A stretch of 64,000 bases of DNA from Alphaproteobacteria bacterium. GTDB taxonomy: Bacteria > Pseudomonadota > Alphaproteobacteria > Caulobacterales > Caulobacteraceae. This document shows, piece by piece, positions 25,492 to 27,378 of this stretch. The position numbers and the translations under genes were made by a program. The notes under the pieces were generated by a model. It saw only the letters and a list, made by a program, of their open reading frames with translations. It did not search any database and was not told the DNA's origin. Position 1 is the first letter of the stretch. Each line of letters opens with the position of its first letter. Location of the stretch: the NCBI GenBank assembly GCA_018820275.1, contig JAHJOO010000038.1, positions 62,001-126,000 of the forward strand. Reading direction: 5' to 3'.

Positions 25492-27378
25492 TCAGTACAG
25501 CGTGCGGAACCGCAGCGTGCCCGCGATGGCCTTCAGCGCGTCGAGCGCGCGCGGGTCATAGTCGCGGTCGACGTCGACGATGACGTAGCCGGTGCGCTCG
25601 TCAGTCTTCAGGTGCTGGCCCAGAACGTTGAGGCCGGCGGAGGCCAGGGCGCTGTTCAGCTCCGCCAGGACGCCCGGCTGGTTGCGGTGGATGTGCAGCA
25701 GGCGATGTGCCTCGGCCACGTCGGACAGCTGGACGTTGGGCAGGTTGACGCTGAAGGTGGTGTCGCCGCGGTTCAGATAGCCCAGCAGGCGCTCGGCCGC
25801 GAACTCGCCGATGGCCTCCTGCGCCTCCTCGGTGGAGCCGCCGATGTGCGGCGTCAGGACCACGTTGGGCAGGCCCATCAGCGGGCTGTCGAAGGGGTCG
25901 TCGTTGGTGCGGGGCTCCTGAGGGAACACATCCAGCGCGGCGCCGCCGATGCGGCCTGATCCGATCGCCTGGGCCAGGGCGCCGACGTCGACGACGTGGC
26001 CGCGCGACAGGTTCAGCAGTAGGGCACCGGGCTTCATGGCCGACAGCTCCCGCGCGCCGATCAGATCGGCGTTCGAGGACCGGCCGTCGACGTGCAGGCT
26101 GACCACGTCGGCCTCGGCCAGCACGGCCTCCAGCGACGGCAGGCGGCGCGCATTGCCCAGCGCCAGCCGCTCGGTCAGGTCATGGAAGACCACGCGCATG
26201 CCGATGGCCTCGGCCACCACCGACAGCTGGCTGCCGATGGCACCGTAGCCGATCAGGCCCAGGGTCTTGCCGCGCACCTCGCGCGCGCCGGCGGCCGACT
26301 TGATCCACTGGCCGCGGTGCATGGCGGCGGACTTGTCCGACACGCCCCGCATCAGAGTGACGATCATGCCGATGGCCAGCTCGACCACGGAGCGGGTGTT
26401 GGAATGCGGGGCGTTGAAGACGGCGACGCCGCGGTCGGCGGCCGCCTCAAGATCGATCTGGTTGGTGCCGATGCAGAAGGCGGCAACGGCCATCAGCCGG
26501 TCGGCGGCGTCCAGCACGCGGGCGCTGACCTCGGTCTTGGAGCGGACGCCGAGGACGTGCACGCCCTTCAGCCGCGCGATCAGCTCGTCCTCGTCCAGCG
26601 CCCCCTTCACGGTCTCGACCGTGTAGCCCGCGGCCTGGAACCGCTGGACCGCGGCGGGGTGGACGTTCTCCAGCAGCAGGATGCGGATGCGGCTGCGGGG
26701 ATAGGACCAGCGGCCGGCGAGACCCTCGGCGTGCAGGACCTCGTCCAGGGTGGCGGCCTCGCTGTCGGCGGCGGCCACGACGCGCTCGCGGCGGACGATC
26801 TCGGTGAAGGCGACGAAGCGGTCGGCGGCGCCGGCCAGCCGGACCTCCGCGTCGGTCCAGCCGTCGCCGATCATGACCACCGGGCCGGTCAGGTTCAGGG
26901 CGCGGATCGCGGCGGCCTTGCCCTGCGGCAGAAGGATGGGATTGGACCGGACGCCCGTGACCCGGCCGGCCTCGTCGTAGGTCAGGTCGTTGGCCAGGAC
27001 GCGATCGGCGGGCACGCCCAGCAGATCAGCGACGGGGGCGATGACCTCGCGAAACCCCCCGGAGACGATCACCAGCCGGTCGGCGTGGCGGCGCAGGGTC
27101 TCGAGATTTCGGGCCACGGACGGCGCGAGGCGCGACGGGGCGCGGGCGGCCAGCGCCTGCACGTGCTCCCGCGTGACGGGCAGCAGGGCCAGCCGCTGCG
27201 TCAACGCCTCGGCGAAGTCGATCCGGCCGGCCATGGCCGCGTCGGTCAGCTCGGCGACCTGCGCGCGTCGCTCGGCGGCGTCGCTCGCGTCCGCCAGCGA
27301 CAGCTCCGCCAGCGCTTCCAGGGTCTCGAAGTCCACAAGCGTGGAATCGAAGTCGAAAATCAGGGTCGGGGCGGCCAT
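25492..27378 (-). CDS. SerB-like HAD phosphatase fused to phosphoglycerate dehydrogenase (SerA)
   Basis: A 628-residue fusion. Residues about 1-222 are a HAD phosphatase: D-F-D-S-T-L-V with Asp9/Asp11, S-G-G-F with Ser106, Lys154, and G-D-G-W-T-D with Asp172/Asp176. The motif resembles phosphoserine phosphatase, except that Thr175 replaces the Asn usual in SerB. Residues about 230-628 are a SerA of E. coli-like length: NAD motif G-Y-G-A-I-G (377-382), catalytic Arg459, Glu488 and His511, then an ACT domain (about 558-628) that would bind serine for feedback control. It would carry the first and last steps of serine synthesis on one chain; serC is not nearby. Phosphatase substrate uncertain. 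Confidence 0.9.
   Translation of the reverse strand: MAAPTLIFDFDSTLVDFETLEALAELSLADASDAAERRAQVAELTDAAMAGRIDFAEALTQRLALLPVTREHVQALAARAPSRLAPSVARNLETLRRHADRLVIVSGGFREVIAPVADLLGVPADRVLANDLTYDEAGRVTGVRSNPILLPQGKAAAIRALNLTGPVVMIGDGWTDAEVRLAGAADRFVAFTEIVRRERVVAAADSEAATLDEVLHAEGLAGRWSYPRSRIRILLLENVHPAAVQRFQAAGYTVETVKGALDEDELIARLKGVHVLGVRSKTEVSARVLDAADRLMAVAAFCIGTNQIDLEAAADRGVAVFNAPHSNTRSVVELAIGMIVTLMRGVSDKSAAMHRGQWIKSAAGAREVRGKTLGLIGYGAIGSQLSVVAEAIGMRVVFHDLTERLALGNARRLPSLEAVLAEADVVSLHVDGRSSNADLIGARELSAMKPGALLLNLSRGHVVDVGALAQAIGSGRIGGAALDVFPQEPRTNDDPFDSPLMGLPNVVLTPHIGGSTEEAQEAIGEFAAERLLGYLNRGDTTFSVNLPNVQLSDVAEAHRLLHIHRNQPGVLAELNSALASAGLNVLGQHLKTDERTGYVIVDVDRDYDPRALDALKAIAGTLRFRTLY

Follow-up and report, generated by a model that had tools for sequence, protein, structure and literature searches.

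Gene and domain architecture

The stretch of DNA analysed here (the window, 64,000 nucleotides) carries an open reading frame on the minus strand at positions 25492-27378, with an ATG start and no internal stops, encoding 628 amino acids and a stop. In brief, the protein consists of an N-terminal HAD-IB phosphatase domain, a linker of about 10 residues and a complete E. coli-type SerA, or phosphoglycerate dehydrogenase (PGDH), with an ACT domain. Pfam places the HAD domain at residues 7-177, 2-Hacid_dh and its NAD domain at residues 233-545 and ACT at residues 560-622. An earlier reading made from the sequence only had described a HAD domain with DFDST, SGGF and GDGWTD motifs joined to a full-length SerA with ACT domain, and the motif positions, the Pfam matches and the NCBIfam model NF008759 bear this out. 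The features, all on the minus strand, are as follows.

25492..27378, minus: serB'-serA' fusion gene of 628 aa plus stop; 49 of the 149 family genomes have orthologues
26716..27378, minus: HAD-IB phosphatase domain (SerB/PSPH-like), residues 1-221; PF12710 1.4e-21, TIGR01488 above cut-off, human PSPH 1.5e-24
27340..27354, minus: motif I DFDST, residues 9-13; D9 nucleophile, D11 acid/base, invariant in 32 fusions
27325..27327, minus: E18, aligned with human PSPH E29; invariant in 32/32
27193..27195, minus: R62, aligned with human PSPH R65; invariant in 32/32
27052..27063, minus: motif II SGGF, residues 106-109; S in 31/32 fusions, T in 1/32
26917..26919, minus: motif III K154; invariant in 32 fusions
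26851..26868, minus: motif IV GDGWTD, residues 171-176; D172 and D176 invariant, position 175 T, G, N or S
26686..26715, minus: linker GRWSYPRSRI, residues 222-231; matches the SerA N-terminus MKTSYPKHKI of unfused pairs
25744..26685, minus: SerA substrate- and NAD-binding domains, residues 232-545; catalytic R459, E488 and H511 invariant
25495..25713, minus: C-terminal ACT domain, residues 556-628; H564, N566 and N584 invariant in 32/32

A short-chain dehydrogenase gene lies 42 bases upstream of the fusion gene on the same strand. Downstream, the gene for ribosomal protein S21 is encoded convergently on the plus strand, and after it, just past the point where the fusion gene ends, comes a hairpin with a T-run; the terminator scan found 1 site of this kind, where chance alone would give 0.7. 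The fusion gene has no other serine gene next to it.

The phosphatase domain

Among the NCBIfam models, the N-terminus of the fusion scores above the cut-off of TIGR01488 (HAD-IB; 66.8 bits, cut-off 45) and below the curated cut-off of the SerB equivalog TIGR00338 (87.8 bits, cut-off 144.15). The latter cut-off is likewise missed by all the fusions and split gene pairs that we found. All four HAD motifs are present in the domain, and its best solved matches are structures of human phosphoserine phosphatase, PSPH (1NNL and 6HYJ). With numbering taken from the alignment, D9, D11, E18, R62 and S106 of the fusion align with D20, D22, E29, R65 and S109 of human PSPH, and K154, D172, T175, D176 and R197 align with K158, D179, T182, D183 and R202. 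In a set of 32 fusions from three classes, D9, D11, E18, R62, K154, D172, D176 and R197 are invariant and S106 is S or T. E29 of human PSPH contacts the amino group of the substrate, and R65 its carboxylate.

The sequence-only reading had held that the Thr in the GDGxND motif leaves the substrate of the phosphatase open. Human PSPH itself has GDGATD, and the fusion orthologues have T, N, G or S at the same position; Thr175 is thus no argument for a different substrate and we drop this doubt. It should be noted that at one other locus (L069) the DFDST motif is out of frame at the start of the fusion ORF, leaving an open frame without the phosphatase nucleophile, which may be a sequencing error or a recent loss.

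An AlphaFold2 model made from the 32 fusions has a mean pLDDT of 86.8 and a pTM of 0.74. The blocks of the HAD domain are mostly above 90 and the linker block (residues 221-230) is at about 66, and both domains are predicted to fold with confidence. The best Foldseek matches of the fusion model are E. coli PGDH; no structure holding both domains was among the matches listed by Foldseek.

The SerA half

The E. coli-type phosphoglycerate dehydrogenase model NF008759 covers residues 223-628 (model positions 4-410 of 410) with 626.4 bits against a cut-off of 404, and this part can be aligned with E. coli SerA (1YBA) over its whole length. The model of the long-type PGDH, TIGR01327, is not reached (267.7 bits, cut-off 454). 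On the SerA side R459, D483, E488 and H511 are invariant in the 32 fusions. In the ACT domain H564, N566 and N584 correspond to the serine-site residues H344, N346 and N364 of E. coli SerA.

Serine genes in the genome

The genome that harbors the window is 99.57% complete. A separate serB, the search for which the sequence-only reading had proposed, was not found among its HAD-type proteins: no stand-alone SerB scored above the cut-off of the SerB profile, and the fusion was the only notable SerB-like match. Judged from their sequences, the remaining weak matches are two P-type ATPases and a HAD protein resembling phosphoglycolate phosphatase. Nor was a long-type PGDH found above the cut-off of TIGR01327. 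The genome does carry serC, on another contig (C7), and a HisN above cut-off. As HisN is present, the HAD domain of the fusion is not needed for histidine synthesis; we considered a role as histidinol phosphatase and judged it unnecessary.

Distribution within the family

We surveyed 149 sampled Caulobacteraceae genomes. The two-domain architecture was found full-length in 49 of them at 59-100% identity: in the genome of the window, in 22 of the 23 others of its genus and in four further genera. Brevundimonas, Asticcacaulis and Caulobacter sp. 17J65-9 and 17J80-11 are among the named records that carry it. As the full-length architecture recurs in this way, the fusion is neither a frameshift nor an assembly accident. 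Overlapping pairs of such genes do exist in relatives, and two neighbouring genes could in principle have been joined by a sequencing or assembly error; the identical in-frame junction and the conserved linker in dozens of independent assemblies already refute this explanation, which is almost certainly wrong.

Both parts occur as separate genes, a split pair, in 2 of the 149 genomes, and 91 have a stand-alone SerB above cut-off and lack the fusion. No family genome has the fusion together with a stand-alone SerB (0/149), and the two split-pair genomes have no stand-alone SerB either. The remaining 7 have neither fusion or pair nor a SerB at that threshold, several of them being incomplete. 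The fusion-free genomes have long-type SerA matches (query about 230-555, in frames mostly longer than 520 aa), and such a long-type SerA is absent among the matches listed from the fusion genomes of the family. The pattern of mutual exclusion is strong, though it comes from few independent evolutionary transitions. Its simplest reading is that the fusion replaced the native serA and serB in the family.

Some single genomes deserve mention. One genome of the Brevundimonas genus (G092, 99% complete) has kept serC (L122) and has no fusion, SerB or long PGDH; it is possibly a natural serine auxotroph, or there may be a gap in the assembly. The split-pair genome G017 has no TIGR01365 SerC match though the other two steps are present, and another type of SerC may serve there. 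A contig labelled as a Bordetella MAG (L131) carries a Brevundimonas-type fusion, which is probably a binning error.

Gene pairs and origin of the fusion

In the Caulobacteraceae genus with split pairs (G017 and G031), the stop of the HAD gene and a plausible TTG start of SerA overlap as TTGA. In two Gammaproteobacteria (L242 and L245) the overlap of serB' and serA' is ATGA. The same gene order with overlapping frames is found in UBA2136 (L051/L126) and on a Piscirickettsia plasmid (L125). The latter was the one plasmid with both parts as neighbouring genes in a search of a plasmid collection with the full-length query; a search of the collection with the HAD domain at E 1e-10 gave no match. 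On this plasmid, Ps8942B-p9 of Piscirickettsia salmonis, the phosphatase gene (L125 2483-3141), upstream of the overlapping serA, is annotated as two hypothetical CDS. In six other gammaproteobacterial loci (L251, L253, L258, L260, L261 and L262) the order is reversed: a phosphatase gene from another HAD clade follows directly after a SerA-like frame (35-41% identical).

The linker GRWSYPRSRI of the fusion corresponds to the SerA N-terminus MKTSYPKHKI in the unfused pairs. Judging from this correspondence, a small change at the overlap, by which the HAD stop is read through into the SerA frame, would suffice to join the genes.

None of the other Alphaproteobacteria in a class sample of 289 genomes has the fusion, and more than 20 have an unfused E. 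coli-type SerA. Outside the class, fusions were found in 3 of 46 genomes from the phylum of an Oligoflexia MAG and in four Gammaproteobacteria (L239, L240, L241 and L243). In those named fusion genomes of Oligoflexia and Gammaproteobacteria that were checked, no SerB-like match other than the fusion was seen. A similar fusion may be annotated in Echinicola and other Bacteroidota; a literature search with the Echinicola locus tag gave nothing.

In a SerA tree, taken without the Piscirickettsia pair, the 22 fused proteins all fall into a single clade with four pair members (SH-aLRT 99; 100/99 in the careful tree). The 43 SerAs that were scored as lacking a phosphatase partner lie outside it; two of these (L033 and L037) have an ordinary SerB-like gene close by. 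The SerA of UBA2136 falls in a different clade. The unfused SerAs of the Oligoflexia phylum form a clade of their own, and the fused ones there were therefore probably acquired. The same grouping is seen in the HAD tree, in which two unfused HAD genes of Micavibrio and Moraniibacteriota fall just outside it. Stand-alone HAD genes closely related to the fusion domain and with no adjacent SerA were seen in small genomes of these two groups (L128/L210, L139/L213, L147, L165 and L198).

A single clade of all fused proteins without the split pairs was rejected by the AU test (p 2e-5). Adding the Caulobacteraceae split pair to the fused clade was not rejected (p 0.21); this pair is nested within the fused forms in the quick tree, but not in the careful tree. 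The history needs at least one gain of the fusion and one further change of state, and it is possible that the split pair of the Caulobacteraceae genus arose by fission. We suggest as a likely history that a mobile gene pair became fused and displaced the native serA and serB, with a possible re-split in one lineage.

Proposed function

We suggest, at a probability of roughly 0.9, that the gene encodes a bifunctional enzyme of serine biosynthesis, a predicted phosphoserine phosphatase/phosphoglycerate dehydrogenase, and that it derives from an overlapping serB'-serA' pair that moved between lineages and displaced a native long SerA and a stand-alone SerB. The sequence-only reading had likewise proposed one enzyme linking the first and last steps. 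The lack of another SerB in the genome, the exclusion across the family and the conserved phosphatase and PGDH active sites, with all active-site positions kept, strongly support this proposal. In brief, the C-terminal SerA would oxidise 3-phosphoglycerate to phosphohydroxypyruvate, the separate SerC would transaminate this to phosphoserine, and the N-terminal HAD-IB domain would hydrolyse phosphoserine to serine. The equilibrium of PGDH is unfavourable, and the irreversible third step would pull the first. A single polypeptide would set steps 1 and 3 at a 1:1 ratio and co-locate them; this does not imply channelling, because a separate protein carries out step 2. By analogy with E. coli, the dehydrogenase should be inhibited when serine occupies the ACT sites. 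One may further speculate that ACT-bound serine controls both active sites and closes the entry and exit steps together, the module being a mobile, self-contained control unit that repeatedly displaced native serA and serB, though we consider this unlikely.

The HAD domain could instead act on another phosphate ester, in which case the SerA would be linked to the following step or to a different pathway. Candidate substrates are phosphohydroxypyruvate, giving hydroxypyruvate that is transaminated to serine, and histidinol phosphate. On the basis of mutant fitness data, a role as histidinol-phosphate phosphatases has been proposed for HAD-IB enzymes that carry a SerB annotation (PMC5764234), and a HAD domain is fused to a different dehydrogenase in the solved glycerol-3-phosphate dehydrogenase 6iuy. 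The missed TIGR00338 cut-off and the split-pair genome with no TIGR01365 match for SerC are also compatible with another substrate. However, the Glu and Arg positions that match E29, R65 and R202 of human PSPH are invariant, no other SerB was found, and the genome has serC and its own HisN, which together make another substrate quite improbable. A catalytically dead HAD domain with a structural or regulatory role, serine being made by an unrecognised phosphatase, is more improbable still. Some phosphoserine phosphatases are not of the HAD type (PMC9026213) and our genome search covered the HAD type, but the 32 fusions, which come from three classes, retain the catalytic residues, and a stand-alone SerB is consistently missing from the fusion genomes.

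A bifunctional phosphatase/dehydrogenase would close the apparent SerB gap, as judged by the curated SerB cut-off, in Brevundimonas, Asticcacaulis and their relatives, where annotation pipelines that give one name per protein likely overlook the phosphatase. The fusion of the first and last steps with the middle step kept separate is unusual. It is a natural experiment on the question whether an unfavourable first step is pulled more effectively when the two activities are co-located at a fixed 1:1 stoichiometry. Separate genes, overlapping genes, a fusion and possible re-splitting within one clade make this a good case for the study of how gene fusions form.

Comparison with known systems

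Fused biosynthetic enzymes are already known; a serine fusion of steps 1 and 3 is apparently undescribed in the open-access literature, where we found no paper on a SerB-SerA fusion. Neither GapMind nor the 2018 gap-filling paper mentions it in the parts available. The SerA half is about 51% identical to E. coli SerA (1PSD/1YBA; NF008759) over its full length, with the catalytic and ACT serine-site residues kept, but the E. coli enzyme lacks an N-terminal phosphatase, and SerB is made there as a protein of its own. With human PSPH (1NNL, 6HYJ) and bacterial SerB (TIGR00338) the HAD domain has the HAD-IB fold in common, and all PSPH active-site positions align, including GDGxTD, whereas it stays under the TIGR00338 cut-off and is joined to SerA. 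The serB'-serA' pairs (L242, L245, L070/L202, L126 of UBA2136 and the Piscirickettsia plasmid), of which L242, L245 and L070/L071 have the ATGA or TTGA overlap, have the same parts in the same order but as two polypeptides. In HAD-GPDH (6iuy) a HAD phosphatase-like domain is also N-terminal to an NAD dehydrogenase, but the dehydrogenase is another one, for glycerol-3-phosphate, and the pathway is, from the name, different. Oomycetes have a bifunctional PGDH-phosphoserine aminotransferase (PMC2705460); this is also a fusion within the serine pathway, but it is eukaryotic and joins steps 1 and 2, whereas the gene described here joins steps 1 and 3.
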